Positions 6,142-41,296 of a stretch of DNA of 51,020 bases are shown one piece after another. Each line of letters begins with the position of its first letter. The stretch's first letter is position 1. Origin of the DNA: a virus; the IMG/VR virus record IMGVR_UViG_3300030328_001017, positions 1 to 51,020 of that record; one strand, 5' to 3'. The notes beneath the pieces are model-generated. The model was given only the letters and a program-made list of their open reading frames with translations. It did no database searches and had not been told where the DNA came from. The position numbers were made by a program, and so were the translations under genes.

Positions 6142-6352
6142 AGCTATCCTTTCCCTGGCAGTCTTTTGGGAAACACTGTGGTAACATTTTATAATATTCA
6201 TTAGTGTAAAATGTTTCCCATCGGTCCTCTGCTACCATAAATTCACATTGTGTTTCTGTCATCACTTGGTCAAGTACCATTTGATTCCCTATGTATTGCC
6301 ACTCTTCTCCAGTATGGCCCCACATACTTATGACTAATACAAACTCTTTCAT
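6134..6352 (-). CDS. Conserved hypothetical protein, 72 aa
   Basis: Begins MKEFVLVISMWGHTGEEWQY and carries four Cys, three of them in the C-terminal region (PQCFPKDCQGKDSC). I recall close relatives as unannotated small proteins in marine podo- and siphophages. The hydrophobic N-terminus may be a weak signal peptide, and paired cysteines would suit a periplasmic protein. Confidence 0.6.
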   Translation of the reverse strand: MKEFVLVISMWGHTGEEWQYIGNQMVLDQVMTETQCEFMVAEDRWETFYTNEYYKMLPQCFPKDCQGKDSCD

Positions 6353-6353
6353 G

Positions 6354-7406: not shown

Positions 7407-7612
7407 CATTTGTCCCCTTTATGTTCGTGTCCCATCCAAATTCCAAAAACACCCGTCATTACGCCCATTACTACGGACACAAAAGCTGACTGTGCTCCTG
7501 TTGGATCAGGAAGATCCATAAACCACTCAGCGCATCGCCAAGACATTACTGTACTAGCCAACATCATAAAACGAGGTAGTATCTTCCATTTGAGAAATGT
7601 TTCTACTGACAC
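7406..7612 (-). CDS. Holin-like small membrane protein, 68 aa
   Basis: Starts MSVETFLKWKILPRFMMLAS. It has two membrane segments (about 13-32 and 42-60) and a charged tail GHEHKGDK. Length, two helices and charged C-terminus are those of a small class II holin. It has an AGGAGG site. The next gene starts within its stop. A second holin candidate lies at 49603-49998. Confidence 0.6.
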   Translation of the reverse strand: MSVETFLKWKILPRFMMLASTVMSWRCAEWFMDLPDPTGAQSAFVSVVMGVMTGVFGIWMGHEHKGDK

Positions 7613-7633
7613 AAGACCTACCTCCTTTTTATG

Positions 7634-7831
7634 TTAAGCTACTTCTTTTTCTAGCATTTCCATTTCTTCCTTGAGTGCCTTAAGCCTTCTTTTCTTTTGA
7701 ATCTGTTCCCGTTCTTCGGGGGATACATGTCGTTCAATATGCATACGTCCAAGTCCATCATGGTAGATGTCAATCTTATCACCTGATTTATAATCATCTT
7801 CCAAAGTCCAAGTTTTTTTAAACATCAACAT
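7634..7831 (-). CDS. Hypothetical charged protein, 65 aa
   Basis: I place the start at the ATG at 7831, preceded by AGGAGAAAG, giving MLMFKKTWTLEDDYKSGD. The C-terminal half is a highly charged helix (SPEEREQIQKKRRLKALKEE). First gene after TerL on this strand. No family recognised. Confidence 0.6.
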   Translation of the reverse strand: MLMFKKTWTLEDDYKSGDKIDIYHDGLGRMHIERHVSPEEREQIQKKRRLKALKEEMEMLEKEVA

Positions 7832-8030
7832 AGCTTTCTCCTGTACTATTGTTAAAGGTAAGTGGTGGTTTCCCGCTGCATACCACCGAATGCATGAGGA
7901 CAATGCGGATCTCTTAGGATCTTTTAGGATCCTTTTGTTCTATAAGGGGTATATACTATTAGATTAAAACACTATTTGGCTTCCACTAAGGGTTTGAGGT
8001 CTATTTATCCGTATATATAGTGGTACATAG
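7832..8030. other. Intergenic gap between TerL and the holin-side genes
   Basis: About 200 nt without a gene. It holds one copy of the 16-mer repeat (7940-7955) and three nearby GGATC-containing repeats (7908-7933: GGATCTCTTAGGATCTTTTA, then GGATCC). No terminator with a U-run is visible for TerL. Confidence 0.6.
7940..7955 (+). promoter_or_regulatory. 16-mer repeat copy 1 (CTATAAGGGGTATATA)
   Basis: A perfect copy of the six-copy 16-mer, reading rightwards, against the direction of all genes around it. Copies 1 and 6 also share the downstream bases CTATT. As a promoter it would make RNA antisense to TerL; a different role (processing, termination, protein binding) cannot be excluded. Confidence 0.55.
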
Positions 8031-23397: not shown

Positions 23398-25032
23398 ATG
23401 GATGAAGACAGAAGATATACAAAAGGACCATGCCCATTTCCTGGGTGTGGTAGTTCAGATGCATTCGTATCATACAGTGATGGAGTAGGACACTGCTTCA
23501 GCTGTGGTAAATCAAAGAAAGTAAAAGAAGAAATGGATGATTATAAACCAGCCACCTTTAATGAGGTTACTAGATTCTCCGATATCAGTAATTATCGTAG
23601 CTATGGTATTACTTCTCGTGGTATCTCTAAAGAAGTAGTAGATTACTTTAATGTAAAAATGAGTACAACACCAGAAGGATTACCTGAATCCCACTACTAT
23701 CCATACACAAGAAACGGTAAGATCGTAGCATACAAAGAACGAAAACTACCTAAAACATTTAGTGTTCATGGAGATTTTAAAGATGTGGAATTATTCGGGC
23801 AGGAACAATCGGTGGGTAGCAAGATGCTCGTCATCACCGAAGGGGAGTTGGATGCACTCGCTGTTGCTCAGGCATATAAACAAAAGTACAATAGGATCTA
23901 CCCTGTTGTATCGCTTCCCAGTGCTTCAGGAATCAATAACCTTCTGGCGCAGCGGGAATGGGTATCTAAATATGAATCTGTCATACTCATGTTCGACTCG
24001 GACGAAGCTGGTTCACAAGCAGTGGAGAAAGCGGCACGAATTGTGGGTACGGGCAGATGCAAGGTGGCAACGCTTAAGGGGTGCAAAGACCCATCAGAAC
24101 TACTCCTTAAGCATGGACCCGATGCTGTCGTGGAGAGTATATGGGGCGCTAAAACGTGGTCCCCTGCAGGAATTGTCATGGGCGAAGCAGTCTGGGAAAA
24201 GCTCAAGGAACGCCAGAATGTTGAGTCGATTCCTTACCCTGATTGCCTTGCAGGACTCAATGAAAAACTCAAGGGGATAAGATATGGTGAGATTACTTTA
24301 TTTACCTCTGGCACTGGTAGTGGTAAGTCTACTGTCATTAAAGAGATTATTCTTGACCTGCTTGCTAAGACAAGTGATAAGGTTGGACTCATTAGTCTGG
24401 AAGAAAGTGTTGGAGATACAGCCGAAAAGTTTATCTCAATGCAACTTAGGCATAACATCATGGATCCTCCACCAACTAGTGAAAGTGAATTGCGGAGAGG
24501 ATACGAAGCTGTGTTTGGTGACGAGCGACTGGTTCTCTTGGATCACCAAGGCTCCGTTGGGGACGCATCTCTTATCGACAAGATCGAATACATGGCCCTT
24601 ATGGGTTGCAAGTACCTCGTTCTTGATCACATTACTATCGCGGTATCGGAAGGTTCTGAAGGGCTGTCTGGGAATGAAGCGGTAGATAAGGTTATGTCTG
24701 ACCTGTTAAAGGTTGTAAAGAAACACAACGTATGGTTAGGACTTATCAGTCACCTGCGTAAAGCCCAAGGAGGAAAGAGTTTTGAGGAAGGGAACATCGC
24801 ATCTATCGATGATATCAAAGGCAGTGGCTCGATCAAGCAGATCTCGTTCGACATCATTGCCTTCTCAAGAAATCTTGTTGCGGAATCAGAGGTTGACCGG
24901 AACACAATCAAGTTCAAAGTCCTCAAGTCCAGATTCACAGGACTCACTGGACCTGCAGGAAGTGCAATCTACGATAACAAAACAACAAGACTAACCCTAA
25001 CGGGTGGCTTTGACGATTACTTTAAAGTATAA
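23398..25032 (+). CDS. Primase-helicase (T7 gp4-like)
   Basis: 544 residues. Zinc-binding module Cys12, Cys17, Cys33, Cys36; TOPRIM primase fold with ITEGELDALA (E148) and MFDSDEAG near 200; then the RecA-type helicase with Walker A SGTGSGKST (K310), an LEES helicase motif, VLDHI Walker B and a C-terminal KGSGSIKQISFDI, as in DnaB/gp4 helicases. It unwinds DNA and primes the lagging strand together with the polymerase and SSB of this operon. Starts 19 nt after the RusA stop. Complete in all domains. Confidence 0.93.
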   Translation: MDEDRRYTKGPCPFPGCGSSDAFVSYSDGVGHCFSCGKSKKVKEEMDDYKPATFNEVTRFSDISNYRSYGITSRGISKEVVDYFNVKMSTTPEGLPESHYYPYTRNGKIVAYKERKLPKTFSVHGDFKDVELFGQEQSVGSKMLVITEGELDALAVAQAYKQKYNRIYPVVSLPSASGINNLLAQREWVSKYESVILMFDSDEAGSQAVEKAARIVGTGRCKVATLKGCKDPSELLLKHGPDAVVESIWGAKTWSPAGIVMGEAVWEKLKERQNVESIPYPDCLAGLNEKLKGIRYGEITLFTSGTGSGKSTVIKEIILDLLAKTSDKVGLISLEESVGDTAEKFISMQLRHNIMDPPPTSESELRRGYEAVFGDERLVLLDHQGSVGDASLIDKIEYMALMGCKYLVLDHITIAVSEGSEGLSGNEAVDKVMSDLLKVVKKHNVWLGLISHLRKAQGGKSFEEGNIASIDDIKGSGSIKQISFDIIAFSRNLVAESEVDRNTIKFKVLKSRFTGLTGPAGSAIYDNKTTRLTLTGGFDDYFKV

Positions 25033-25042
25033 AGGGGATTAT

Positions 25043-27361
25043 ATGGATCCATTCGAATCGATTTCAGAGTACCTACTTGATAAGGTCAAAAGGGTTAATC
25101 CAAATAACCCCAAGGCAAACTCAGGTGGTGTGCTGCTGAAGTTATACAAAGAATATAGAACGGAAATGCCACACCTAGTATCTGTGGCTTTCCAAACAAT
25201 ACAAATGAGATTCACCTATGATACCTCGGATAGTCCTGCAGGGACTGCACAACTAACAGCTGTTTCTACAGCTATTGGTCAACGAATAGCACGTATAATT
25301 AAAAGAGAACCACCTGTGTTACCTTGGAATATGCATGTACGATTGGGTGATCTCTTCATAGAAGCATTCTATAACTGTGGATATATAGATATCTACTATC
25401 CTAAGACAAGGGATACTAGCTACATCGTATCAGCAACAGCTAAATGGATTGACCTAGCTGATATACCTGAAGCTATGTCTAGGATATCACTAAACCATAC
25501 TATCCTAGAGAGACCAGAAAGAATAAGAAAAATAATACAACAGGATAATGAACCCCTGATTAAGGAATGGACTGAAGAGGACAACGCTGAGTTTGTTTCT
25601 ATGATAGGGACACCCTGGATTACATCTGTTGATAAACTTCAACGAACAGGTTGGAGAATAAACCAACGTGTATATGATGCACTCATAGAGAACAAAGACT
25701 CTTTTGTTTCATCTATTCCTATTGAGGACAACGATGCAAAGGAAATGAAACGAAGAAGTAAACTCGTTGAGTGGGGGTTCATAACTACCAAGGCAAAGAT
25801 ACTGTATGATCAAGATGTATTCTATCAGTTCATGCAAGCAGATTACCGTGGTAGGTTGTACTATTCAGAGTCCTTCCTAAACTACCAAGGGTCTGACCTA
25901 GCCAGAGGCATGATGACCTTTGCTAGAGGAAAGCCCATGACTGAAGACGGACTCTTCTGGTTAGCTGTACACACAGCCACTTGCTTTAATCAAAGTTATA
26001 ACTTAGATGAAATACCAGAGTGGTGTGAAGCAGACTACAAAGGATACTTGGAAAAAGAAAAGTTGGAATCTATTAGTGTAGATAAGTTTACCCTTGAAGA
26101 CAGGGTACGCTGGACTAATGACAACATGGAAGTGATTATCCAGATGGGAGGTAAGTCTCTCGTAACACACATGGCTGAGAAACCTGTGTCTTTCCTTGCC
26201 TGTTGTCTTGAATGGAGCGATTACCAACGAGCAGTAAGGGATAATAGAATCCACGTAAGCCACCTTCCAGTGCCCATAGACGGGTCTAACAATGGTTGGC
26301 AGCATCTAGGTGCTATCTCTAAGGACATCCAGACAGGGAAGCTTGTAGGGCTGATACCAGTGGATATACAACATGACTTCTATGTACAGACTGCTAAACA
26401 ACTCTATCATCTTACTACTGATGAGAGACTCAAGGGCATCCTAGATAAGATGCCTATGAAACATATACGAAAAGCTATATCTAAACGTGGTAGCATGACT
26501 AGAGCATACTCAGCAGGTGCAAAAAAGATCTCTGAGAATATGTTCTTTGATTGTAAAGCGGAGGACTTCCACATAGAGTATGGGATAACACAGGATGACT
26601 GTGATAAGCTGGCAAAATTATTGATTAAGGCAATCAATCTTGTATGTCCAGGCCCCCTACATACTATGGCCTACCTGCAGAGATTAGCACAATATGAAAT
26701 AGGTGAATACCATAAGTACGACAGTAACGGAAACGCTGCTGGTCCTGAATACAAACAACTGGTCAAGGATCAGAAAGAGTTGTACACAAAGAAGGACAAA
26801 ACAGATGAAGAGATTGAAGAACTTAATCGGTTGACTGTACTTATGAAGACATATAAGAGTGAGCTTATTCACGGCAATGGTAGAGACAGGATCACATGGG
26901 TAACACCATCAGGGTTCAAGGTCATCTACGCAAATTACACTACAGCTACACGTAAATGTAGAGGTACTATAAGTGGGTATAAAACTGAATCTAAAGGACA
27001 CAAAGGAGTTAACCATGTGGCAAGGGTTCCTACAAAGACCCCAGACATTCGCGGATTTATGTGCGGTGTCAGCCCTAACTATATCCATAGTCAAGATGCA
27101 AGTCATATGGCTTTGGTTATTGAAGAATGGAACGGTGACTTTGGAGCAGTCCATGATTCCTTTAGTACCCATGCGTGTGATGTCGAAGCACTCTTAACGA
27201 GGACCAAGCAGAGCTTTATCGAAATGTACGATAAGGATAATTACTACGACTTGATACAACAAAACATCATCACTGATGCAACTAACCTTGACGTAGAGCA
27301 ACCCGAACTGGGCACGTTAGATGTAACACAGATACATGAATCTGATTACTTCTTTGCCTAA
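25043..27361 (+). CDS. T7-type single-subunit RNA polymerase
   Basis: 772 residues from the ATG at 25043 (AAAGGGG 8 nt upstream; an earlier in-frame ATG lies in the helicase gene). Motifs: YQFMQADYRGRLYYS with the DxxGR element; motif A PIDGSNNGWQHLG (D413); motif B SKRGSMTRAYS (K481, Y489); motif C VHDSFSTHA (D705), preceded by HSQDASHM. Shorter than T7 RNAP (883 aa), mainly in the N-terminal domain. Two deviations: the Gly after the motif B Tyr is Ser, and the Arg four before K481 is Lys. It ends the replication operon and would drive late transcription, perhaps from the 16-mer repeats. Confidence 0.94.
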   Translation: MDPFESISEYLLDKVKRVNPNNPKANSGGVLLKLYKEYRTEMPHLVSVAFQTIQMRFTYDTSDSPAGTAQLTAVSTAIGQRIARIIKREPPVLPWNMHVRLGDLFIEAFYNCGYIDIYYPKTRDTSYIVSATAKWIDLADIPEAMSRISLNHTILERPERIRKIIQQDNEPLIKEWTEEDNAEFVSMIGTPWITSVDKLQRTGWRINQRVYDALIENKDSFVSSIPIEDNDAKEMKRRSKLVEWGFITTKAKILYDQDVFYQFMQADYRGRLYYSESFLNYQGSDLARGMMTFARGKPMTEDGLFWLAVHTATCFNQSYNLDEIPEWCEADYKGYLEKEKLESISVDKFTLEDRVRWTNDNMEVIIQMGGKSLVTHMAEKPVSFLACCLEWSDYQRAVRDNRIHVSHLPVPIDGSNNGWQHLGAISKDIQTGKLVGLIPVDIQHDFYVQTAKQLYHLTTDERLKGILDKMPMKHIRKAISKRGSMTRAYSAGAKKISENMFFDCKAEDFHIEYGITQDDCDKLAKLLIKAINLVCPGPLHTMAYLQRLAQYEIGEYHKYDSNGNAAGPEYKQLVKDQKELYTKKDKTDEEIEELNRLTVLMKTYKSELIHGNGRDRITWVTPSGFKVIYANYTTATRKCRGTISGYKTESKGHKGVNHVARVPTKTPDIRGFMCGVSPNYIHSQDASHMALVIEEWNGDFGAVHDSFSTHACDVEALLTRTKQSFIEMYDKDNYYDLIQQNIITDATNLDVEQPELGTLDVTQIHESDYFFA

Positions 27362-27623: not shown

Positions 27624-27671
27624 ACCCCCTACTAGTTTCCTTAATTGGATTCTAGTAGGGGTATTTTTTTT
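27624..27671. terminator. Bidirectional terminator between convergent operons
   Basis: A 10-11 bp stem (27624-27635 with 27652-27662, arms ACCCCCTACTAG and CTAGTAGGGGT) flanked by an A-run on the left and a T-run of nine on the right, so it works on both strands. It separates the plus-strand replication operon from the minus-strand virion operon. Confidence 0.9.
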
Positions 27672-30600
27672 TAGTGTGAGTAATACTGAAGTATTCTCAA
27701 GTCTGGGTTATCACTATTAAGATTAGCCATAACCTTTTTCTTTAACGCAGATTTTTTCTTTTCAGTATCTCTTATAAGACTAGAAAGATTGTCATTAATC
27801 CCTGCATGTTCTTTAAGAGCTTCTATAAATATCTTAAGATCTCCTACTGTTAGTTGTGTATCAGGTCGGATTACCAAAGGGTGTTTTGTTTCATGGGTTC
27901 CTTCACGAGTAAAACCTTTAAACCCTTTACTTACCATATATCTTTGAAAAGATCTAACAGCAGCAAATGAATCTTCAGGTGGAGGATACATAATCTCTCC
28001 TAGTTTATTATTAAAATTCAAAATCTGCCTTCCACTTTTACTTCTGTAAGTTGAAAACAAATAATCAAGCATAGCTCTATCGTTTCCTATCAATGGTTCA
28101 TTCGGATTTTTAAATCTTTCATTTAAAGATTTTGACAACCGTTCTAAAGCTAGTTGTGCTTGTTTTAAATAAGACCATTGGAAATTAATATCTATCCATG
28201 CTTTGTTTACATTATGTAATACAGCATCATATGAAGCAGCATCCATTTTAAACGCATCGTAAATAGGAAACACATAAGGTTGTTGCTGTGGGTTCTGAGA
28301 TCTAACTTTAATATTTCTCCAATATCCACCCTTATTAGAAGCCAATCTTGCTACTGTTGCAGCATCAATTGACTGGACAGGGATGGGGATTGCAGCACCC
28401 CAGGATGTCCCGCCTACTTCTTCTGTTTGATTACCTGTTACAGGATCAGTTTTAAACTTTGGAGATGCAGACGTAGCTTCTTCACCGTACACCTGTGCTT
28501 TAGGAGAAGCTTTTGCTTGATAAAATGAAGAACCACTATCCCTTACTTCCATAAGAATTCTAGGAAACTCTGTTTTCCAAATGGTATCGTCTTGAGTATG
28601 TGTTATTTCTTTTCCACGAGTTTCTTTTAACGCTGACATAGCATCAGGGTTCTGATCAAAACTTGCTTGTATAAGCTTAGTCATAAGACCAATGCTTATC
28701 TTTTTATTAACAGGAAACTTTCCCTTAATTTTTACACCTTCTTTCCAAGGCTTGTTATAAGTTTCCTCATCAAACTTACCAGACTTAAGGGTTTGATAAG
28801 CATGTTCAACTGTTTGATAAACCCTTCCTTCTTTATCCTTAAAAGGACGAAGAGCAAGGTTACTAAGTCCAGAATTTTCACCAGACCCATACCAAATATT
28901 AAACTTACCTTTTTGATTAACAAAGATCCTATATTGTGTAGCACCTTCCTGAGCACCAGTGGTCATCATACCACCCATGTTAAGCTTGGAACCAGTCGGG
29001 CCATCAATAGTAAACAAACTGTTTGTAACAGCATGTACAAATGAAACACCCCTCATAACATTACGAGACATCATGGTTTCAAAACCCAAGACTTCTCTTA
29101 ATGCGGTATCATAATGAGAATGGATTGCGTCAACTAATTGATCACGAGCAGAATATAATATTTCTTCTTGAGCCTCTTGGATTCTTTTATTGTCTTCATA
29201 GCTTCCAGTAGATGATTCCATCAATGCCAAAAGGTCGGGTTTAGAATCATCAACTTTGGTTTCAAATGCATCCACAAGTATTTTAAATTCTTCTGCTTGA
29301 GCCTTAACCTTTGGGTCAGAACTATTAACATCTACCATTGTTTTTATAATAAACTCTTCGATGTCTTTTTTAAAACCTTCAACATTCTTACCATAACCAA
29401 ATGTCATAGATGTAGTTTTGTTTAGTCCCCTATTTGAATAAACAAACTTTGCTATGTCATACAGTTCAGAGAAATCATCTTTAGAGAATCGTCCAAATTC
29501 TTCCTTTGCCAAAAGAGTTTGTAATGTGTCATCAAGAACATCACGAATATCTTTATTTTCATCAAGAAAGAAATCACTAACTCCGCTACGAAGAACACCT
29601 GTACGATAAGCAATATCTTCAATACCTAGTTGCATTCCATTAGCAGCAAGGCCGTTAGTCTTACCATCTATGTATGCATTAAAGTATGTGTGATATGGTC
29701 TACCTGCATCCATAGCGTCTTTGTAATTAGCGAAATCTACAAGACCATCAATAAAAGCTTGACCATCATCACCTTGCTTTTCAATTTCTTTTATAAGATC
29801 AGCATCAGTATTAGGATCTAATGCTAACGCTGGCATCTGTGGAAAGTTAGGATCTTGCATTGACATACCTGAAGCAATAGCATCGGCTACTTTTTCAACT
29901 TGCTCATTAGAAATTGCTTCCAAAGCAGTCCGAAGTTTTACCCCCTTTTGGTATAATAACGTTTCATTTTTTTGAAGAGCTTTTTCTCTAGCCGAAGGAA
30001 CCAAGGCATCTGCATCCTCAACTAGAGCCTGTGCGTACATCTGTCGGAGTGCTCTCTCAAACCTAGAGCCTTTTACAATTTTTGTAGGGGTAGCACTACG
30101 AGTAACAAATCGAACAGCTTTCTTAGTTGTCGGATCAAAGTTTGTTTGTTGTACAGCAATACGACCTGTTGCTCCTTGAAGATAAAACGTGAGATAGTTT
30201 GCACCCTTACGGTCTAAACAAATACCGTATAGAGATTGAGCCAAATCATTTTCAATTGCATCCATACTGTCTTGCGGATCAGGAATAATCCTATGATTTC
30301 TTGCTTCAGCAATCTTTTCCCTAGCAATAAAGTCATTCATCTTATCTTCACCGATAAAATTAATAGACCTATAAGGGTTAGACGGAGAGCTTAAGGCTAC
30401 TAATGCAGTAGAAAGTAAAATCTTAAGACGCAATGGGTCAACTACATGGGCAACTTGAGAATAGTTTCTCATGGCCTCATTTAATTCTTTAGCATGTACA
30501 CCATCACCCTTAACGTGTACTCTTGCAGTAATATTACGAACAGTTCTTCCTATTTCACCACCTAATCTTCCATCAATTGGTGGTGCTTTTAAAGGACGAA

Positions 30601-31699
30601 CATGTTCTTTAGGAAGAAATTTCTTACGAAGGGTATTACCCTGTCTAAGAAGAGAAGCACCAGTGTCGGTAACTTCAAACATTGCTTGATCACCCTGAGT
30701 GTTATTATCTGGGCTTGTCCTGTTAAGAAAAACATTTTCGCCATACTGTCTATTCATACCGTAATAGTACAACTCTTTTGCCATATCCCCAAGCAAATAT
30801 TCTTCTTCAGGAGTAAGGTCAGTATAAGAATCAGTAGGCTTTTGCTGTTGTTCATTAAGGATTCTTTGGTGTGCTCTGTGTATTTCCCTTCCAAGCCTAC
30901 GGTTTCCATCAGCTTTAGAAAAAGCACCCTCGCCTAATAGCTGATCATCTGTAACTTCATCCATGTTTTCAAATTCATTATCTGGATTTCTACCAAAGAC
31001 AGTTTGAGACAAAGCATCTTCAGTTACATATGTTAAAACCTTAGCAAACAACGGAGTTAGCCTTGGTTTTCTAGGATCATTGGATGCTCTTCCCCCATCA
31101 AGAGCGTTGGTTTTATTTAATAGAGAGTTAACATTACTGTCTTGGGATGCAGCAGCTGTAGTACCTCCAAGGTATACAGTACCTGATTCAACATCTTGGG
31201 CTAGTCTTGCAGCCCTTCCTTCAATATCACCATTTGGCATAGCACTGGAAGAACCAGCAGCATTAGGGTCTCGTGCAGCTTTATTCCATCCCCAATATGT
31301 ACCCGCTTGTGGTTGAGTACCCCTTGATGTTTGAGTCATAGGGGGTATTGTTTCATTAGGATTCGGAGGACCAAACACTTCATCATATTCAGCTATGCTT
31401 TGACCAGTATCGTACTGCGCTTGTGCAGCTTCATCCTGTTGTACATCAACTGCATCGCTTGCAAAGTCATCTAATCTGACAACCGAAGAGTCCACGGCTT
31501 CTGGAGAGTCCTCCACAGGATCTTTTGTAACAGGCGTTACAGGGTCTCCTTGTGGGGTAGTACCCTCAGGATCTTCAGAGGCTGCTGACGAGGCTGTATT
31601 CCCCGCTAACACCTCTTCAAATCCTAAAGCTAACTCTAATTGATCTGAAGGCAGTACGTTACCAGTGTCTAAACCTGATACATTAGACTTACTTGCCAT
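27671..31699 (-). CDS. N4-type virion RNA polymerase with an inserted NADAR (YbiA-like) domain
   Basis: 1342 residues from the ATG at 31699, which has AGGAGAA upstream. Polymerase motifs in order: QGATGRIAV (T/DxxGR element, R513), YIDGKTNGLAANGM (motif A, D678), R757-GLN-K761-TTSMTFG-Y769-G (motif B, the exact Rx3Kx7YG spacing of T7 and N4 enzymes), VQSIDAATVAR (like T7 HSQDGSH) and PIYDAFKMDAAS (motif C, D1148). Between B and C, residues about 925-1053 form a NADAR-family domain: WYGSGENSGLSNLALRPF (936-953), TVEHAYQTLK (963-972) and RGKEITHTQDDTIW ... ILMEVRD. The B-to-C distance is 387 residues, against 181 in T7. The N-terminal about 250 residues are Pro/Thr/Asp-rich. It lies in the virion operon, so it would be injected and transcribe early genes. 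Confidence 0.85.
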   Translation of the reverse strand: MASKSNVSGLDTGNVLPSDQLELALGFEEVLAGNTASSAASEDPEGTTPQGDPVTPVTKDPVEDSPEAVDSSVVRLDDFASDAVDVQQDEAAQAQYDTGQSIAEYDEVFGPPNPNETIPPMTQTSRGTQPQAGTYWGWNKAARDPNAAGSSSAMPNGDIEGRAARLAQDVESGTVYLGGTTAAASQDSNVNSLLNKTNALDGGRASNDPRKPRLTPLFAKVLTYVTEDALSQTVFGRNPDNEFENMDEVTDDQLLGEGAFSKADGNRRLGREIHRAHQRILNEQQQKPTDSYTDLTPEEEYLLGDMAKELYYYGMNRQYGENVFLNRTSPDNNTQGDQAMFEVTDTGASLLRQGNTLRKKFLPKEHVRPLKAPPIDGRLGGEIGRTVRNITARVHVKGDGVHAKELNEAMRNYSQVAHVVDPLRLKILLSTALVALSSPSNPYRSINFIGEDKMNDFIAREKIAEARNHRIIPDPQDSMDAIENDLAQSLYGICLDRKGANYLTFYLQGATGRIAVQQTNFDPTTKKAVRFVTRSATPTKIVKGSRFERALRQMYAQALVEDADALVPSAREKALQKNETLLYQKGVKLRTALEAISNEQVEKVADAIASGMSMQDPNFPQMPALALDPNTDADLIKEIEKQGDDGQAFIDGLVDFANYKDAMDAGRPYHTYFNAYIDGKTNGLAANGMQLGIEDIAYRTGVLRSGVSDFFLDENKDIRDVLDDTLQTLLAKEEFGRFSKDDFSELYDIAKFVYSNRGLNKTTSMTFGYGKNVEGFKKDIEEFIIKTMVDVNSSDPKVKAQAEEFKILVDAFETKVDDSKPDLLALMESSTGSYEDNKRIQEAQEEILYSARDQLVDAIHSHYDTALREVLGFETMMSRNVMRGVSFVHAVTNSLFTIDGPTGSKLNMGGMMTTGAQEGATQYRIFVNQKGKFNIWYGSGENSGLSNLALRPFKDKEGRVYQTVEHAYQTLKSGKFDEETYNKPWKEGVKIKGKFPVNKKISIGLMTKLIQASFDQNPDAMSALKETRGKEITHTQDDTIWKTEFPRILMEVRDSGSSFYQAKASPKAQVYGEEATSASPKFKTDPVTGNQTEEVGGTSWGAAIPIPVQSIDAATVARLASNKGGYWRNIKVRSQNPQQQPYVFPIYDAFKMDAASYDAVLHNVNKAWIDINFQWSYLKQAQLALERLSKSLNERFKNPNEPLIGNDRAMLDYLFSTYRSKSGRQILNFNNKLGEIMYPPPEDSFAAVRSFQRYMVSKGFKGFTREGTHETKHPLVIRPDTQLTVGDLKIFIEALKEHAGINDNLSSLIRDTEKKKSALKKKVMANLNSDNPDLRILQYYSH
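28540..28930 (-). other. NADAR domain within the virion RNA polymerase
   Basis: Residues about 925-1053. The pattern S-N-x-A-x3-PF, then EHAYQ, a helix with ISIGLMTKLIQASFDQNP, then ...TRGKEITHTQDDTIW and LMEVRD, aligns over its length with E. coli YbiA. NADAR proteins bind ADP-ribose derivatives, and members have been reported to hydrolyse ADP-ribosyl-guanine and act as DarT1 antitoxins. The conserved Glu965/His966 pair is present. Activity in this setting is inferred. Confidence 0.8.
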
Positions 31700-31700
31700 A

Positions 31701-34700
31701 TTATTCTCCTTTATAATTCCAAGATTCTGGTATGAAATCTCCAACCCTTGAGAATCCACCAGTAACACCAAGGGCAGGTATCAACCTACTACCTTCTTGT
31801 GCACCACCAGCAAAGTCTCCTGTTGCTGTTTTACCCATTGCTCTACCAATACGTTTTAGTGTACCAGTAGCGGGTGCTTCACCTGTTGTCGTATTCCATA
31901 TCCATTCTCCAGCATTACCAGAACGTTGTTCATATATGGGGAAGAACTGATCAAGCACACGCTCACCAACACCAAGTAAACCTGATGATCGTATACCACG
32001 TTGGATATACTCTTCGGTTTCTAGGTGTGGGTTCTTACCTGTCTTGTACTCATCTTCGTCTAACCCACCATACTTAATAAGATCCTTTAGATACTGAGAG
32101 GCAAAGCCCATCATTATCATAGTACACATTAGAGCAAATGCATTGTACTTCATTGATGGAGTACCACGTTTGACATATTCACCCCATAGTTTAGGGATAT
32201 GGTTTGCTGTGAATGTTGCAATGAATCCTTGAAACTGTGTGAACAAGAAGAACCTTGGGTCTTGATAAATCAATGGCCTGTTGGCTATTCCTGGTAGTGC
32301 TACAGCATCATCGATAAAATTCATAGAGCCTATTCTTAAGTTGCTCATCATTAAATCTTCATCAGCTTTTATTTGTGCATCTGTTCTCTCATCAATACCA
32401 GTAGCTTCTCTGTTTCTAGATTCTATTTGTATCCTTACTGCGTCATCGACATTTATTCCAATGTTTCGTAAGGCTTCTTCTGATTCTTGAACCTCATTAG
32501 TTTTAGGATCACCACTTGTTCTTTGGTCAGTAACAATATTAATATGATCGAAAATATAATCAGCTGATATTGATGCTCTCATAGATCTGGTCATGTTAGT
32601 AAAACCAGTTAGCCCAGTAGCCTTAAAGAATATTTCATAGAACCTTTGATGTGATGGGTTCATTTCTGAAACACCAGTAACTGTAGCAGCACCTAGTTCC
32701 CATGCATCATATCCTAATTCTTTTCTCCAAGCTTGACCCCTAGATCTACTTGCTATAGGTAAACCTGTAGAAGGATCTATATTTCCTAGCTTCTCTTCTC
32801 TACGTGTTATAACAGAACCAGTTTCTTTTATACCAGAACTTATAGCCTTAGCTAGTTCTTGACCAAAGGATTGAAGACTTGTTTTATCAGAATCTTTTCC
32901 TTTCCTTTTAAAGATTTGTTCTGCAGTTAAAGCACGAGAAGACAATGCAAGTTCTGGAAGAGATGACACAGCAGCCATGCCTAGTGTTCCAATAGTTGTA
33001 AGGAACATAAGGTTTTTCTGGATACCCATAAGCATCTTACCCATGTCGGATGTCGGACGTTTATAGTTTCCAGATTCAGCATTAAGATAGTTTCTTAAAC
33101 CAACAGCAATTTTATTTACTTCTTCTGCAGGTACACCTTCAGCTTGCATCTTGTCTAAATAGTAAGCAATTATCTCACCATTCTTACCAATGTAATCTCT
33201 ATGTGCTGTAAACCTAGCAGCAGATTTAATAGAGTGTTGTATGTTCTTATAGATATCCCGCTGCATAAACTTTTCAAATACAAATTTACCATCAGCGCCT
33301 TTCTTTTCAGACATCCCAAGAGTGTTGGCTCTGTGAGATCCAGGAACAATACCACCTTTGGTGACATCAAACCCAGTGTTTAAATCAACACCAACAGCTG
33401 CTCCTGCTTCTTCTATATCGCTAATAGTATCCGAATATAATATCTGATCAACCAATTGTTTAGCAATTGATGGAGTAATTTTTGGATAGGTAGCAACTAA
33501 CAAAGCCTCAAACTCATTACGGTTTTTTTGAACAGCAACTTTATCTAGAGTCTTATATCTATGAAGGTAGTTTTTACGTTTTCCAAGATCTCCACCAGCT
33601 TTTACTTGATCGTTATACATAGCATCTGCTGTTTGATTCATTTGTACAGCAAGTGCTTTTATAGCATCAGCTTGTAATTTATTAAGACTTGTTGTATCTA
33701 AAAGATTAGGATCATAATTACCATCACTATCTACGGCTGCTTGAAGTCGTTTATAAATATCATCACTAAGAGTATCTATTTCCTTTTGACTTAACACTCT
33801 ACCATTTCCCATGATGTTATAAAAATCATCAGGGTTTTGTAACATGTTCCTGTATATAGAAACACGATCACGTTTAGCCATTTCAAAATCAGCACCGCTA
33901 AATACTTTTTGAAGACCACCACCAAGACTTGCTGCTAGCTTTCTAGCTGATGAAGACATCCTCTTAACTTCAGCAGGTATTATATAATCGATAGATCTTC
34001 TCCAAAGGGCTGGAGCAGACGCAAACATGTCACCAATTGTCTCACCAATGGTTCTATCCTTGAGTCTCTTTTTATCTGCTTCTCCTCTTAAGTCAATATC
34101 TGTCGGAGCAAAGTTTGTATTTTGTTTCTTTTTTTCATCTAATTCTTTTTTAATCTCTGCAATGTTTTCTTCATTAGATGTTACACGAGAGTTTGCAGGG
34201 TCTGATCTTGCTTTTTCACCTGCTTCTTTAGCAATCCTATCTATGTCTTGTGCTATATAATAGTCTAAACTTCCAGCAATAAACCTATTAGGACTAGATG
34301 GATCATACCCTTCATCTTTAGCTCTTCTATATTCTTCTGCACCTTTGGCCTTTTTATAAGCTTTATTATAAGCTATCTGACCGTTCCGAGTACGCTCTGC
34401 TTCAGCTTGTGCTCCCTCTTCAGAAAGACGTTTAGCTTCTGCAGGTAACTGACGTACTGCTACATCAGCCCAAGCACCAGCATTAACTGCTGCCCCAGGA
34501 ACTGCAAAGGTAGTACCTAAAGCAGTACCAGCTACTGCAGCCTGAACAATCCGATTGTTAAGTTCGTTATAGTCAAAGACCTTATCAGAACCAAGGGTTG
34601 CTCCGAGGTATGCAGTGGCTTCTTGCATAGCTTCTGTTGAACCCTCACCAACACCACCGATTAACCCTCGTGTTGCAAGGTCCCTAAAGATAGCCTTGGC

Positions 34701-36101
34701 TGTGATCTGTTGACGAGCTACCTTAGCTGCATCACCAGAAAGTTTTGCTAACTCTTTACGTGTTGCTGTAAGAAGTAATTTTTCAGCAACTTCTTTACTT
34801 AATCCTTTTCCTCCTTTTGCAACGTCAGCAGTCATCTTTTTAAGGGCTTGAGTGTACATAGACTTAGGTGTAATGCCTCGTTTAAATATAAGATTAATAC
34901 CAATCCTATCTAAAACAGCTTGAATTGTACCTGCTGCAATTGCAACAGTTGCACTTTTATTATCACCCTCCATCTCTGCCCATGTGTTTCCAGTATACAT
35001 AGACACGGGTAAAAGAATACTAGCACCTCCAGTAACCCCTGAAAGCAAAGCAGCACCACCAGATGCAGCCATGTATGGTATGGACATTGCAGCGTTGGTT
35101 CCTAAGAACTCAACGGCTGTTAGGAATCCATCTACATCTTTGTAGTCTGTAATGATCTTTCCGTTCTCACCCATACGGGTACGAGCACGTTCCATACCTG
35201 CTTCACCAAAGTCTTCTGCAGCTTCCCAATCTAATTTTTCTCCAAGCATATCTGCAAGAGCATAAGCGGATTGAGCCACACTGTTCCATCCAGTTTCCCA
35301 AGCAACAGTCATAGGATTATTAGCACGACCAGACACATCATCCCTATCAAAATAATCAATATCTGGTCTAGCATTTTTATCAATAGCATCTCTTTGTTGC
35401 TTAAGCATATGGAGGCCCACAAGATCTTGATCTGTAGGCTGTTCTCCATTCTCTCTCATTTCAGCTAGGCCATCTTCGACTGTTTTAATTTGTTCATCAA
35501 GCATACCGATCTCGCCAGAGAATCTTTGTGCTCTTTTAAACTGTTGGGCAAACCTTTGCTCTTCTCTGATACCTTCTTGTATCATCATACGAGCTTTATC
35601 AAATGCGCCAGGTTGGTAATCAGCAGAAGTTTGATCTGCTCTAGGACCTCTTAAAAATTCTTGATAATTCCTAGACCCCCGTAGTACATTACCAGGGTCA
35701 AACCCATTAGCAATATCTACGACACCATTAATAGCAAGCTCACGAGAAAAAGATTTACCAGTTTCTGGATGAACAAGATCACCCATTTGACGAGTTCCAG
35801 TAGCATCCATTTCTGGAGTACCATCTGGGTTCCATCGTCTACGAATTTCAGTATATCCAAGTTGGTTAGCCAAAGCTTGAACTTGTTCAGAAGTTTGAGT
35901 AGCTCCCACTTCTTGTGAGGCTTTTAAACCTTGCCATGATTTGTAAGTCTCAGGGGCATCAATACCCCCAAGACGTACATCTAAGTCGTTACCTTCTTCA
36001 CGGACAGTATCTGCATCCAAAAATGTAGTTTTATTTTTAGCACCTTTTAATTGGTTTGCTTCACCACTAAGGATGTTACTATAATCCGACACATCAAGCA
36101 T
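31701..36101 (-). CDS. Giant ejection (internal virion) protein with N-terminal staphylococcal-nuclease-like domain
   Basis: 1466 residues, close in size and place to T7 gp16 (1318). The N-terminal 150 residues look like an SNase (TNase) fold: FLDADTV (D29, D31), VRLGGIDAPET (R43, D48, E51), matching the Ca-binding and catalytic positions of the family. The middle contains long Ala/Gly-rich hydrophobic stretches (about 350-400 and 500-560) suited to membrane crossing. After a charged linker (about 600-690) come helical parts and a further hydrophobic part around 1060-1090. Such proteins are ejected into the periplasm to build the DNA conduit. A nuclease could clear host DNA or RNA at the entry site. 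AAGGAG precedes the ATG. Confidence 0.75.
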   Translation of the reverse strand: MLDVSDYSNILSGEANQLKGAKNKTTFLDADTVREEGNDLDVRLGGIDAPETYKSWQGLKASQEVGATQTSEQVQALANQLGYTEIRRRWNPDGTPEMDATGTRQMGDLVHPETGKSFSRELAINGVVDIANGFDPGNVLRGSRNYQEFLRGPRADQTSADYQPGAFDKARMMIQEGIREEQRFAQQFKRAQRFSGEIGMLDEQIKTVEDGLAEMRENGEQPTDQDLVGLHMLKQQRDAIDKNARPDIDYFDRDDVSGRANNPMTVAWETGWNSVAQSAYALADMLGEKLDWEAAEDFGEAGMERARTRMGENGKIITDYKDVDGFLTAVEFLGTNAAMSIPYMAASGGAALLSGVTGGASILLPVSMYTGNTWAEMEGDNKSATVAIAAGTIQAVLDRIGINLIFKRGITPKSMYTQALKKMTADVAKGGKGLSKEVAEKLLLTATRKELAKLSGDAAKVARQQITAKAIFRDLATRGLIGGVGEGSTEAMQEATAYLGATLGSDKVFDYNELNNRIVQAAVAGTALGTTFAVPGAAVNAGAWADVAVRQLPAEAKRLSEEGAQAEAERTRNGQIAYNKAYKKAKGAEEYRRAKDEGYDPSSPNRFIAGSLDYYIAQDIDRIAKEAGEKARSDPANSRVTSNEENIAEIKKELDEKKKQNTNFAPTDIDLRGEADKKRLKDRTIGETIGDMFASAPALWRRSIDYIIPAEVKRMSSSARKLAASLGGGLQKVFSGADFEMAKRDRVSIYRNMLQNPDDFYNIMGNGRVLSQKEIDTLSDDIYKRLQAAVDSDGNYDPNLLDTTSLNKLQADAIKALAVQMNQTADAMYNDQVKAGGDLGKRKNYLHRYKTLDKVAVQKNRNEFEALLVATYPKITPSIAKQLVDQILYSDTISDIEEAGAAVGVDLNTGFDVTKGGIVPGSHRANTLGMSEKKGADGKFVFEKFMQRDIYKNIQHSIKSAARFTAHRDYIGKNGEIIAYYLDKMQAEGVPAEEVNKIAVGLRNYLNAESGNYKRPTSDMGKMLMGIQKNLMFLTTIGTLGMAAVSSLPELALSSRALTAEQIFKRKGKDSDKTSLQSFGQELAKAISSGIKETGSVITRREEKLGNIDPSTGLPIASRSRGQAWRKELGYDAWELGAATVTGVSEMNPSHQRFYEIFFKATGLTGFTNMTRSMRASISADYIFDHINIVTDQRTSGDPKTNEVQESEEALRNIGINVDDAVRIQIESRNREATGIDERTDAQIKADEDLMMSNLRIGSMNFIDDAVALPGIANRPLIYQDPRFFLFTQFQGFIATFTANHIPKLWGEYVKRGTPSMKYNAFALMCTMIMMGFASQYLKDLIKYGGLDEDEYKTGKNPHLETEEYIQRGIRSSGLLGVGERVLDQFFPIYEQRSGNAGEWIWNTTTGEAPATGTLKRIGRAMGKTATGDFAGGAQEGSRLIPALGVTGGFSRVGDFIPESWNYKGE

Positions 36102-36112
36102 GGTAATACTCC

Positions 36113-39100
36113 TTATTCTTTAGGTTTGTTAATTTCAGTATGTAATGCCTGGGCTGTATCCATCATGTACTTATAAAATCCAGATTCACCAGCACTCTTT
36201 TCAGCACTGTTTTCATACTTTTTCTTTAGCGCACGACCATCATCAGTTTTATCTAAGCTATTCCATTTTTTAATAGCTATACCTATAATATCATCACGCC
36301 TTGTAGAAGATCCAGGGATTTTACTAATAACAGTATCAAGGTTTTGGTACAGCAAATCCATTTTATCTGCACGTACATACTCTGGAACTGCTTTCTTATC
36401 CTTTACTTTATCCATATTAGTTATGAATAGTTCTGGAGCACCAGTAGTTTCCCTTAACTGTTGAGCTTCTAGATACCTAGTAAAATCATTAGGTGTAAAT
36501 TTAATACCTTCAGATTTAGCCTCCATAACCATATTTTCATATGCTTGAGTCATAACCTTACGACCAGCTGTAGAGTCTGGATCAACTCCTTGTTTCTTAG
36601 CCCAATCATAATAAAATAATGCTGCTCTCTCAGGGCCAACACCTACACGGTATGTTCTTTTACCATCTTCTTCTGTGTAGTTATCAGGTGAACCATCTCT
36701 GATTTCTTCGAAGTAGCTTTTCATATCGCCAAGGATTCTGCTACGCCTTTGTTTATATTCTTCAGATTCACCATCAAGTTCTTTACGATAATCTGGAAGG
36801 TTAGCAAACCTAGATGGATGTATTACTGAACCAGAAGCGGTTTGATAATAAGTTCCCTTATCTGCACTACTTTTTACAGGTACTAGTGTTTCCTTAGTGT
36901 ACCTTATAATGTCTCCCTTTTTATTAAATTGAGGAACCATTTTAGTTACAGGAACACCACCAGTTGGTGCATACGTAGCATCTTTCTTTTCAAGATCTGA
37001 TAAGTTTTTAGTTTTCTTATACTTAGAAATAGACGATGCCTTATAAGTACCATCTTTTATTAAACTTTTAACAAACTTATTATGCTCAGAAGCTTTAGAA
37101 TCAACACGCTTAACATATTGTTTAGCAGCATAATTAAGAGATCCATTATGAGAACCACCTAACATACGACCACCAACATACATGATAGCCATTCGTTGAA
37201 GCTCACCCTCATCGAAAAGATCTCCGAGTATGCTTTGGAAGAAACCCTTTGCTTTGTTAATGTCTTCTGGGGGTGCTTCTCCACCCTTCTTTTCAACTTC
37301 ATCTGGTGTTCTTTTTCCAGTAACAGTATTATCGTCTGGAGTGTTTTCATTATCATTAATAATTTCTTCAACTTCAAACACTTTAGATTCTTTTATAGAA
37401 TCACCTTCTTCATCTGCATCAGATTTAGGAGGCTCACCTGTTTTAGGAACAGTAGGGTTTTTAGGATCATAAGACGAAACAGTATTGGCTTCCTCATCTG
37501 AAGCTGCTTTTCTATTAGCTGCACCTTTTTCATTACTTTTAACAGTGGCTTCAAGATCAGAATTAGCAGCATTGGCTTTTTCTACAAGAGATTTATGACT
37601 ATTAACATCATCAATAGTTGCTGTGCCATTAGCTTGTTTAGCTTCTAGTTCTTTTGTTGCTTTTTCCAATTCAGAGTTAGCCTTATCTGCTTTTTCTTGT
37701 GCAGCTTTAAGGGCTGTTGAATCTACTTCTTCTGCAAGAGCGTCAGCTTCTTTTCGGTTTTGAGGTATTCCTACTCCACGATAAGTATTATCTTGACCTG
37801 CATCAACCTTTGGTTCACCAGTGACAGGATCAATATTAGATGCAGCTGAAAACAATTCACCTACAGTCATATTAGAACTTGGTTCTTTAATCTCAGGTTT
37901 TCTAAGCAACACTTCATCTCTGATTTGTTGATCTTCACTACGTGGGCCAATTGCATCAGGAACTCTAGGACCAAAAGGACCATCTGAGTATTGGCTGAAA
38001 TCAATCGGAGTATCATCCATTGGTGGAACACCACCTAACCCTTCAAACTCACTAGCTTGTAGCATCTCGTCAGCTTCTGGATTAGCCATGTTCTGTAATG
38101 CAGGAACTCTACTGTCAAAGATTTCTTTTCGTGTCCGTCTACGACCCATCTCTGGGCCACTGAGTTCGTCAGGTATAGATAAGTTTCCTTCAGCTACCTT
38201 AGATTGCAATGCAGGAATCCTTTCATTAAAGATTTCTTCTGCTGTTCTAGGTGCAGTACCAGTACCAGAGAATTCTTCTGCAGCAGTTCTGTCATTTACT
38301 CTACTTTGTAATGCAGGAACTCTACTGTCAAACACTTCTTGTGCTGTTCGACCACGACCCATCTCTGGACCACTAAGCTCATCAGGTATAGATAGATTTC
38401 TTTCATCTATTTTATCCCTTAGTGCAGGGATTCTTTCATCAAAGATTTCTTGCGCTGTTCTAGGTGCAGTACCAGTACCAGAGAATTCTTCTGCAGCAGT
38501 TCTTTCATTGACCTTTCCTTGAAGAGCAGGAATCCTTTCATTAAAGATTTCTTTAGCTGTTCTAGGAGGTGTGTTAAATAATTCTATTTCATCCCGTCTA
38601 CGGTTTTCTAATCCTGGAACTACTTTACCATCAGCCATACGAAACTCTGCAGCTTCCTTTTGGAAAGTTTCAAAGTCACCTGAATTAAGAGCAGCACGAG
38701 CTTTACTATTAGCAAACTGTGGACCACCAATGTTATACAGTAGTGACTTAACAGCAGCTTCTTGATTGGAATTAAGATCAGCTGTGACCAGATTATTATA
38801 ATCACGATCAGTAACTGCCATTTCTTCAAGAAGCCTAGCGTTAGCCTCTTCTTCAGTCATGGTGTCACCCATCTTAACACCCTTAGTAAACCCGTAACCG
38901 ATTGTCGGTACACCTGCAGAGTCTAGATAGGCTTCATTGCGAAACCCTTCTTTATCTTTAAGTAGATCCATGTATATCTTATTAGACATAAGTGGGTCTG
39001 GTCTTGTAGGACTCTTTGGTATATCGTTTAATGTTTTAAACCTTGTGTTGTTTGTTGGAAAACCTCTGTTAGATGCATCAGGTCGGGATCCAGAGAACAT

Positions 39101-39448
39101 CCCTAGTAAACTATCCAACCAACTACCGCCTTGGTTCATATACACAGGACCACCATGTGCAGCGTACTCAGGGATTGTACCCCCTTGTTGTGCTTGAATA
39201 GCACGACCAACATTGTTCATCTGCTCTATCTGTGGCTCAAATATACGAGTAGCTTCAGTATTCATTACAAACTCACCAGGAGTTAACCATGCAGGTACTG
39301 TGTCAGTTCCCTTGGGATCTCCTGGATGATCGGGGACACCTTCCATCATAGGAGGGATTGGTCCCATATCAACATCAGATCCTTCGTAAAACTCAAAGGA
39401 GGTCATGTTCCCATGCCTGTCTTTGTTTGTAAAACTTTTCAGTTTCAT
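36113..39448 (-). CDS. Virion-associated lysozyme (GH24) with tandem repeats
   Basis: 1111 residues. N-terminal part with PAWLTPGEFVMNTEATRIFE, a motif I know from marine-phage internal proteins. The lysozyme domain spans residues about 155-300: KEGFRNEAYLDSAGVPTIGYG holds E167, D176 and T182 at exactly the T4 spacing (E11, D20, T26), with NIGGPQFANSKARAALN after it. Residues about 300-455 are five tandem units of 34-37 residues. A Glu/Asp/Lys-rich, probably disordered region spans 500-780, and a helical C-terminal domain follows. It would open peptidoglycan during DNA entry. Placed between the ejection protein and the Hint protein in one operon. Confidence 0.82.
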   Translation of the reverse strand: MKLKSFTNKDRHGNMTSFEFYEGSDVDMGPIPPMMEGVPDHPGDPKGTDTVPAWLTPGEFVMNTEATRIFEPQIEQMNNVGRAIQAQQGGTIPEYAAHGGPVYMNQGGSWLDSLLGMFSGSRPDASNRGFPTNNTRFKTLNDIPKSPTRPDPLMSNKIYMDLLKDKEGFRNEAYLDSAGVPTIGYGFTKGVKMGDTMTEEEANARLLEEMAVTDRDYNNLVTADLNSNQEAAVKSLLYNIGGPQFANSKARAALNSGDFETFQKEAAEFRMADGKVVPGLENRRRDEIELFNTPPRTAKEIFNERIPALQGKVNERTAAEEFSGTGTAPRTAQEIFDERIPALRDKIDERNLSIPDELSGPEMGRGRTAQEVFDSRVPALQSRVNDRTAAEEFSGTGTAPRTAEEIFNERIPALQSKVAEGNLSIPDELSGPEMGRRRTRKEIFDSRVPALQNMANPEADEMLQASEFEGLGGVPPMDDTPIDFSQYSDGPFGPRVPDAIGPRSEDQQIRDEVLLRKPEIKEPSSNMTVGELFSAASNIDPVTGEPKVDAGQDNTYRGVGIPQNRKEADALAEEVDSTALKAAQEKADKANSELEKATKELEAKQANGTATIDDVNSHKSLVEKANAANSDLEATVKSNEKGAANRKAASDEEANTVSSYDPKNPTVPKTGEPPKSDADEEGDSIKESKVFEVEEIINDNENTPDDNTVTGKRTPDEVEKKGGEAPPEDINKAKGFFQSILGDLFDEGELQRMAIMYVGGRMLGGSHNGSLNYAAKQYVKRVDSKASEHNKFVKSLIKDGTYKASSISKYKKTKNLSDLEKKDATYAPTGGVPVTKMVPQFNKKGDIIRYTKETLVPVKSSADKGTYYQTASGSVIHPSRFANLPDYRKELDGESEEYKQRRSRILGDMKSYFEEIRDGSPDNYTEEDGKRTYRVGVGPERAALFYYDWAKKQGVDPDSTAGRKVMTQAYENMVMEAKSEGIKFTPNDFTRYLEAQQLRETTGAPELFITNMDKVKDKKAVPEYVRADKMDLLYQNLDTVISKIPGSSTRRDDIIGIAIKKWNSLDKTDDGRALKKKYENSAEKSAGESGFYKYMMDTAQALHTEINKPKE
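38090..38575 (-). repeat. Alternating tandem repeats in the virion lysozyme
   Basis: Five units begin RTAxEIFxxRxPALxxKV; the last begins RTRKEIF. Type A ends RTAAEEFSGTGTAP and type B ends LSIPDELSGPEMGRG, in the order A-B-A-B-x, so a pair of about 70 residues (about 210 nt) has been duplicated. The DNA of the A units is also nearly identical, for example the segment at 38262-38290 and 38462-38490. Confidence 0.85.
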
Positions 39449-39460
39449 GTAACTCTCCTT

Positions 39461-41296
39461 TTATTTTACCGTATTATTAAAGCCTGATAAAGGTCCTGAC
39501 ATCTGTGTGTTTACATTTTCACCTAACATGTCAGCTAAGTTTGGATCAGTTCTTGGTTCTTCAAAATGTATTCCTGATGTTAGATCAGTAATAGGTGTAT
39601 CTGCACCACCTTTAGAAAATGGTGATGGATCTGTTGATGTTGTGCCATAATTACCAGAGAACTCTTCATCCCACATATCATCAACATCAGGCGTAGACAT
39701 TGGTGTGTTTACATTTTCACCCAACATATCACCTACGCTTGATGATGTGCCATAATTACCAGAGAATTCTTCATCCCACATATCATCATCAATGATTGCT
39801 GGCATCGTGCTAGGCTTATAAGTAGACTCAGTATCACCTTCTTCACCTTCTGAACCACTACCGTTGTGAACCCTGAGGTCTTCCGCAATATAAGTATGTG
39901 TGTCTTTGACTTCAAAGTTATATACTGTTTGTTCATTACTATCTAAGGTTTCAATAGAAGACACAGGATACATCATCCCATCTTTAGTCATTACTAGTTC
40001 ACCTTTTTCAAACAGACCAATCCATTTGAATGCATTATGCTCAGGCATATAGAACGGATGATTAGATGTAACAACAAATTCTTTATCATTTGACAGTGTG
40101 ACTTTAACAAGAGAATCTGAACAACAATCTGTGAAGGTGTGTGAATGTACTTTAGTGACTTCATCTTCAACAATCTTACTGTCTTCACCAAAGGCCAACA
40201 CTTTATCACCAACTTGGATATCTTCGATATTCTTTGTTGTGTTATCAGCCATAGAGATTTGAGTTCCCTCAGGAAAACAAGTACCTCTTTGATTTCCACT
40301 ATGCCATCCAGCTATTGTATTAGGGGTAGCACTAGTACGTTCTGCTAAGGCTACCCGTTGTTCTCTATTAAGTGTTTCTGGTTTAGTAATATCAGCATTA
40401 ACAAAACTAACACCATCTAGCATTACTGTTGTACCGTTTGGTCCTTTCATCTGACCGTGTTCATCAACCATTAACGGACCTTGATCTGATTGTACATAAT
40501 CCCCAGGGTTTGTACCCCATACAGGACCAGTTGGTAAATTACCAAACTCATCTGTACTAGCATTAAGAGTATTCTGTGTAAGAATATTAGCAAAATTCTT
40601 AATAGGAGAGTTAGCCCCCATTCTACGAGACTGCCTTGCACCGAATTTTGTTAACCCTGGATTTTGATCCATGTGACTATAGATAGAATTATCGTAGCTT
40701 CCAAGTAAGGAACTAATAGGATCTTCACCATGTGCTCTTAGTTTTCCATAGCTACTTTCAGGACCGAACATACCACCTTCAGTTCCTACACCTAACCAAT
40801 TAGATCCCCAAGCAGATGGCGAGTTATAGCTGTGACCACCCCTGCCTGATATTGGATCCCATCCACGACCTTTGTCATCAAAAACCATTCCTCGGTTGCT
40901 ATGTGTCCCTGGATTACCATAAGTGTATTTTTCACCTTTGTTAGGATCACTAAAAAGGCCTCCAGGTACAAGAGCATTAAAGAAACCAAAAGGGTTTCCT
41001 TTACCTTGAGGATAACCAAGAGATTGTGCCATGTTTATTCTTTCTTGATTATTAGCTTGAAGTCTGTCATTTTCAGCTTGATTATCACCACCACCAAAAG
41101 GGTCATTAGCAAACTGAGGTTGAATACCGCCAGAACCTGTACCCATAACTGGGGGAGGTGTAGCACCGCTACCCTGTAATCCAAGAGGGGGTGGTTGATT
41201 TATAGGCTGTGTTGGTTGTCCAAAGTTTGAAGGGCCATATCTAAAACCATACTTAGGCTGCAACTGATATGTTGGCTGATAAGGAATTGTTGACAT
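39461..41296 (-). CDS. Virion protein with Hint (bacterial intein-like) self-processing domain
   Basis: 611 residues. The N-terminal 330 are Gly/Asn/Pro-rich and structural-looking. Residues 340-478 form a Hint domain: it begins C340-FPEGTQISMAD (block A), contains VVTSNHPFYMP (block B, TxxH type) and ends TYIAEDLRVHN478 (blocks F and G). There is no homing endonuclease, and the +1 residue is Gly479 instead of Cys/Ser/Thr. It therefore fits bacterial-intein-like domains, which cleave at their ends rather than splice. The C-terminal 110 residues are an acidic linker with two copies of DDMWDEEFSGNYGT and two of DMLGENVNT. The start has AAAGGAG 8 nt upstream. Confidence 0.8.
   Translation of the reverse strand: MSTIPYQPTYQLQPKYGFRYGPSNFGQPTQPINQPPPLGLQGSGATPPPVMGTGSGGIQPQFANDPFGGGDNQAENDRLQANNQERINMAQSLGYPQGKGNPFGFFNALVPGGLFSDPNKGEKYTYGNPGTHSNRGMVFDDKGRGWDPISGRGGHSYNSPSAWGSNWLGVGTEGGMFGPESSYGKLRAHGEDPISSLLGSYDNSIYSHMDQNPGLTKFGARQSRRMGANSPIKNFANILTQNTLNASTDEFGNLPTGPVWGTNPGDYVQSDQGPLMVDEHGQMKGPNGTTVMLDGVSFVNADITKPETLNREQRVALAERTSATPNTIAGWHSGNQRGTCFPEGTQISMADNTTKNIEDIQVGDKVLAFGEDSKIVEDEVTKVHSHTFTDCCSDSLVKVTLSNDKEFVVTSNHPFYMPEHNAFKWIGLFEKGELVMTKDGMMYPVSSIETLDSNEQTVYNFEVKDTHTYIAEDLRVHNGSGSEGEEGDTESTYKPSTMPAIIDDDMWDEEFSGNYGTSSSVGDMLGENVNTPMSTPDVDDMWDEEFSGNYGTTSTDPSPFSKGGADTPITDLTSGIHFEEPRTDPNLADMLGENVNTQMSGPLSGFNNTVK
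39500..39785 (-). repeat. Imperfect duplications at the 3' end of the Hint gene
   Basis: DNA coding DDMWDEEFSGNYGT occurs at about 39640-39682 and 39745-39787. DNA coding DMLGENVNT occurs at about 39505-39531 and 39700-39726. Suggests a recent internal duplication of the acidic tail. Confidence 0.7.

Follow-up and report, generated by a model that had tools for sequence, protein, structure and literature searches.

A phage RNA polymerase that is probably packaged in the virus particle carries a NADAR domain in the middle of its own catalytic domain, between polymerase motifs B and C. NADARs are enzymes of the kind that remove ADP-ribose from DNA bases, and the key residues of this copy are intact. 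Related polymerases without the domain were identified, and domains of the same kind recur on unrelated virion polymerases, which suggests that phages repeatedly use their first injected polymerase to bring in a counter-defence enzyme. The analysed window is the complete 51,020-nucleotide stretch of IMG/VR virus record IMGVR_UViG_3300030328_001017. An initial annotation, made from the sequence alone, had reported a NADAR domain inserted in this polymerase, and our analysis confirms that observation. Its interpretation, transcription-linked protection or repair of the incoming template by a new kind of system, is only partly supported. The features of the window are as follows (all coordinates are window positions).

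27671..31771 (-), single-subunit RNA polymerase, N4-type by fold, with inserted NADAR; the ORF opens at TTG, and the likely start is the ATG at 31699 (codon 25), directly after the stop of the upstream gene
28511..28918 (-), insert (residues ~952–1087) absent from close relatives
28535..28903 (-), NADAR domain core (residues ~957–1079)
28805..28807 (-), E989, equivalent of catalytic E88 (E. coli C7 NADAR) and E43 (P. nicotianae NADAR), in an EHxYQxxK motif (PMC11543638)
28784..28786 (-), K996, equivalent of K95 and K50 in the same two proteins (PMC11543638)
28598..28600 (-), H1058, the His of phage-type (gp30.3) NADARs, at or next to the third catalytic position (PMC11125620)
29624..29680 (-), polymerase motif A (NAYIDGKTNGLAANGMQLG); compare N4 YVEADGVTNG
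29390..29431 (-), polymerase motif B (RGLNKTTSMTFGYG); compare N4 KNPLTITIYG
28241..28270 (-), polymerase motif C (FPIYDAFKMD); compare N4 KIFDGMNIG
31701..36101 (-), neighboring large virion protein gene, upstream of the polymerase in the late operon (phrog_6958 virion structural protein, 6.4e-17)
36113..39448 (-), virion protein with lysozyme domain (PF00959, 3.9e-33)
25004..27361 (+), second RNA polymerase, T7-like and convergent (PF00940, 2.2e-56), used as an anchor to find relatives

The 1,366-codon ORF contains motifs A (DGKTNG), B (LNKTTSMTFGYG), and C (PIYDAFKMD) of single-subunit RNA polymerases, and a weak PHROG match identifies it as an RNA polymerase (9.7e-4). An AlphaFold2 model of residues 401–1366 (pTM 0.68) was compared to PDB structures using Foldseek, and the best matches were the N4 mini-vRNAP structures 3c46 (1.3e-8) and 2po4 (E ~1e-8), followed by T7 and mitochondrial polymerases. 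Sequence comparisons did not support this link. Profile alignment with the N4 vRNAP gave no meaningful alignment (hhalign E 0.24), profile comparison with the T7-like RNAP of the same phage also failed, and phmmer searches of the PDB with the domain or the whole polymerase returned nothing useful. The assignment therefore rests on motifs and fold, and we describe the protein as N4-type by fold and not as a member of the N4 vRNAP sequence family. The gene is the last of a late operon next to the virion structural and lysozyme-bearing proteins, the same arrangement as gp50 in N4, and packaging in the virion is likely but inferred from this synteny only. The N-terminus of the virion structural protein (31701–36101) resembles a staphylococcal-nuclease-like motif (RLGGIDAPE), with no supporting Pfam match. 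The late operon also encodes a 611-aa protein with a Hint/intein-type domain at 39461–41296 (-) (PF07591, 2.7e-10; PF14890, 1.1e-7), and a Rieske-type ring-hydroxylating oxygenase alpha-subunit match occurs at 6354–7409 (-) (PF00848, 8.6e-8).

Multiple lines of evidence identify the insert as a NADAR domain. Pfam PF08719 matches residues 965–1066 but is below the gathering score (25.8 against 35.1 bits; E 1.3e-3 for the full protein and 1.5e-5 for the domain). Residues 925–1053 given in the initial annotation are the same stretch counted from the ATG at codon 25. Stronger matches were found to phrog_1017 (1.2e-8) and, using tblastn, to a crAss-like phage NADAR (36.8% identity, 8e-15). An HMM constructed from 17 free-standing phage NADARs matched the domain at 1e-49, with no match to any other window ORF or to any of 200 shuffled sequences. 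The domain has low confidence in the 966-residue polymerase model, so a separate 146-residue model was used (pLDDT 89.7). Its only good PDB matches are the three solved NADARs, 2B3W, 8BAU, and 8BAT, the third with an E value of 0.07. A chance match is rejected by the fold, HMM, and shuffling results.

E989 and K996 match the Glu and Lys shown to matter in the E. coli C7 NADAR (PMC11543638). H1058 matches the His reported for phage NADARs (PMC11125620), although in our alignment it falls in the column of YbiA's own His, next to the catalytic Glu, so that last assignment is tentative. All three residues are invariant in 57 phage NADARs; the Glu is partly fixed by the search pattern used to collect them, whereas the Lys and His are not. 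The domain has Thr-His at the third catalytic position, and neither the Glu of the YbiA family nor the Asp of DarT1-linked (BC4488) NADARs is present. No ADP-ribosyltransferase was matched in the window proteins scanned, which did not include every ORF. A DarT1-linked NADAR was rejected on the basis of the catalytic residue and the absence of a DarT partner among these proteins.

The polymerase and the convergent T7-like RNAP were used as anchors to compare the same genomic slot across contigs. Four independent contigs carry NADAR at the same site: the window, 3300020336_000022, 3300025151_000067, and, cut by the contig end, 3300007863_000270. This rules out an assembly chimera. Eleven related polymerases lack it: 3300007345_003061, 3300044676_002747, 3300036807_000115, 3300046168_000001, 3300017786_001910, 3300008012_000102, 3300006922_001853, 3300017697_001715, 3300025810_000039, 3300025767_001100, and 3300007146_000007. 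The linker in 3300036807_000115 (VNQRPEDVNESYKKRTTPK) is longer than in other insert-free close relatives and resembles both ends of the insert, and it could be a scar of a lost NADAR. The distance between motifs B and C is 379 residues in the window, 338 and 364 in two other insert-bearing relatives, 199–235 in insert-free relatives, and 273 in N4; the initial annotation gave 387 for this protein and about 280 for N4. The nearest cultured relative by T7-like RNAP (38% identity), Roseobacter phage CRP-7, has an unannotated 1,235-aa protein (gp33; 5860–9567, -) in the same slot that is possibly a distant virion polymerase.

Patterns of divergence indicate that the domain moves as a module under purifying selection. 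The polymerase of 3300025151_000067 is 34%–47% identical to that of the window over most of its length, yet its NADAR is 67% identical. NADAR dS values against the two relatives are 0.36 and 0.81, lower than in every one of 45 and 44 equal-sized windows of the rest of the gene (minimum 0.50 and 1.09), with dN/dS values of 0.21 and 0.35. Values of dS above about 1 are near saturation, so the ranking is more informative than the size. The domain thus spread between these polymerases after they diverged and, judged from sequence, is kept functional.

Related NADARs occur at other positions on the same protein class (L numbers denote individual contigs compared here). In L011, whose convergent T7-like RNAP is 92% identical to that of the window, an 84%–85% identical NADAR lies inside an HExxH metallopeptidase-like domain near the C-terminus of the slot protein (L011:1–1023), interrupting it just after the HExxH motif. 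The L011 contig is cut, so its polymerase part is not seen. L026 (9846–13847) has the metallopeptidase-like domain without NADAR. In L065, an N4-type polymerase (HMM 2e-56) has NADAR at its C-terminus.

NADARs also occur on the unrelated double-barrel virion polymerases of crAss-like phages, which have the DFDxD motif, in at least 12 contigs: cr126_1 (N-terminal), cr131_1 (L016), L015, L072, L111, L124, L128, L129, L130, L132, L136, L137, and L138. A phmmer search of the other giant ORFs with the cr126_1 polymerase core gave no hits. The set was joined by an HMM built from the same set, which is circular, and two members were checked independently against PDB 6vr4 (9e-15 and 5e-13). L015 (read with TAG as Gln) and cr131_1 appear to be read with TAG as an amino acid; cr131_1 gp48 has in-frame stop codons. 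About two dozen more NADARs are in other giant proteins of several hundred to more than 5,000 residues. One of these has a polyvalent-protein-associated domain (LPD38), and one, a 3,259-aa protein (L100:4123–13899), has a 2OG-Fe(II) oxygenase of the AlkB-type Pfam family, DUF7831, and NADAR side by side. In a NADAR tree, eleven crAss-type copies form one well-supported group and two fall elsewhere, while the N4-type copies group together with one giant-protein and one free-standing copy. The sample was seeded with embedded NADARs, so these proportions are not frequencies.

The explanation we favor, with moderate confidence, is that the polymerase is a delivery vehicle. In this view, the polymerase is packaged in the virion and ejected with the DNA to transcribe the first genes. 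A phage-type NADAR hydrolase, inserted in frame into the segment that holds the promoter-reading specificity loop in T7 and N4 polymerases and folding there as an independent domain, would enter with the first DNA. It could then act before any phage gene is expressed, removing ADP-ribose that host defense enzymes place on nucleic acid, guanine being the known NADAR substrate (PMC11543638). Phage ADP-ribose-handling domains are often virion-associated (PMC9503650). The sequence data show the insertion, the NADAR family and fold, the intact key residues, the presence and absence of the domain in relatives, module exchange, purifying selection, and recurrence on other virion polymerases, whereas packaging, hydrolase activity, substrate, and a counter-defense role are inferred. 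Many close relatives do without the domain. The DarT link is weaker than the initial annotation implied, as the domain lacks the Asp of DarT1-linked NADARs, and T4 gp30.3, a phage NADAR active in vitro on ADP-ribosyl-guanosine, did not rescue cells from DarT1 (PMC11125620).

The gp30.3 result also allows for an alternative in which NADAR destroys small ADP-ribose signals or toxic derivatives made by NAD-consuming defenses and the polymerase is still only the carrier. PMC9503650 proposes soluble ADP-ribose derivatives as the main targets for most phage NADARs. This is possible but less likely than our preferred reading, because NADARs from four settings, all those tested in PMC11125620 and including the phage one, hydrolyzed guanosine-ADPr, and the oxygenase neighboring NADAR in L100 is a hint toward nucleic-acid repair. 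Coupling of repair to transcription, as proposed in the initial annotation, is unlikely but not excluded. If true, a repair enzyme built into the promoter-reading loop would remove ADP-ribose from the template as the first transcripts are made, physically coupling transcription to reversal of a host DNA modification. By motif order the insert lies in the specificity-loop segment (N4 D901 and R904, PMC4496689) and should be near upstream DNA; in T7, this loop spans residues 739–770. This placement is an inference, as the whole-polymerase model is poor there (pLDDT below 50 around residues 937–1021 and 1080–1129). NADARs of the same kind inside a metallopeptidase-like domain, at the C-terminus, at either end of the crAss-type polymerase, and in giant proteins with no recognized polymerase point to co-delivery rather than mechanical coupling.

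Two further readings are very unlikely. The position of the insert would also be consistent with a remodeled specificity loop that changes promoter recognition, with an incidental enzyme fold, but key residues and fold are kept across 57 homologs and the domain occurs at sites unrelated to promoter recognition. Patchy distribution and module exchange would fit a selfish or neutral passenger that jumped into a tolerant surface loop and does nothing, but the dN/dS values and the intact key residues in all copies argue against it.

These findings suggest that ADP-ribosylation defenses act so early that several phage groups, with unrelated virion polymerases, have attached a NADAR to the polymerase that enters with the DNA. 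Natural pairs with and without the insert, with the same polymerase and the same site and differing by one domain, make this idea directly testable. The findings also suggest that the core of a single-subunit RNA polymerase can take a ~130-residue enzyme between motifs B and C, which is of use to polymerase engineering. We found no report of NADAR on any virion polymerase, including those of crAss-like phages, in the literature searched, which lacked most subscription papers and preprints. Phage NADARs are described as typically stand-alone and sometimes virion-associated (PMC9503650). The description as a new kind of system in the initial annotation is nevertheless too strong, because virion polymerases fused to other early-acting domains are known as polyvalent proteins (PMC5512222).

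Polyvalent proteins of phages and conjugative elements are large multi-domain proteins thought to be transferred with the DNA, and virion RNAPs are among them. The protein described here combines a polymerase and a NADAR, and relatives L026 and L011 have the HExxH domain; NADAR is not mentioned in the 2017 survey (0 occurrences), and insertion between catalytic motifs of the polymerase is an unusual architecture. The N4 virion RNA polymerase (gp50) and N4-like vRNAPs share the single-subunit motifs, the best fold match, the late-operon position, and a likely virion location, and N4-like vRNAPs are often fused to metallopeptidase, ART, lysozyme, or PBECR domains (PMC5512222). The window protein has no detectable full-length sequence similarity to N4, is much shorter, and has NADAR within the polymerase domain itself rather than appended, and the phage has a one-piece T7-like RNAP instead of the two-subunit RNAPII of N4. 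Phage NADARs of the gp30.3 type (T4 gp30.3, PF08010/PF08719) share the fold, the Glu and Lys of the catalytic center, and a His at or next to the position where other NADARs have Glu or Asp, but T4 gp30.3 is free-standing and this copy is an inserted domain. The DarT1-linked NADAR antitoxin (DarG1) shares the NADAR fold and an EHxYQxxK-type motif; here there is no catalytic Asp (D171 in E. coli C7), no linked DarT among the window proteins scanned, and no sign of the N-terminal extension described for DarT1-linked NADARs. The crAss-like phage virion RNA polymerase (phi14:2 gp66, 6vr4) is a virion polymerase that in several phages also carries a NADAR, but it is an unrelated double-barrel polymerase with the NADAR at its N- or C-terminal side.
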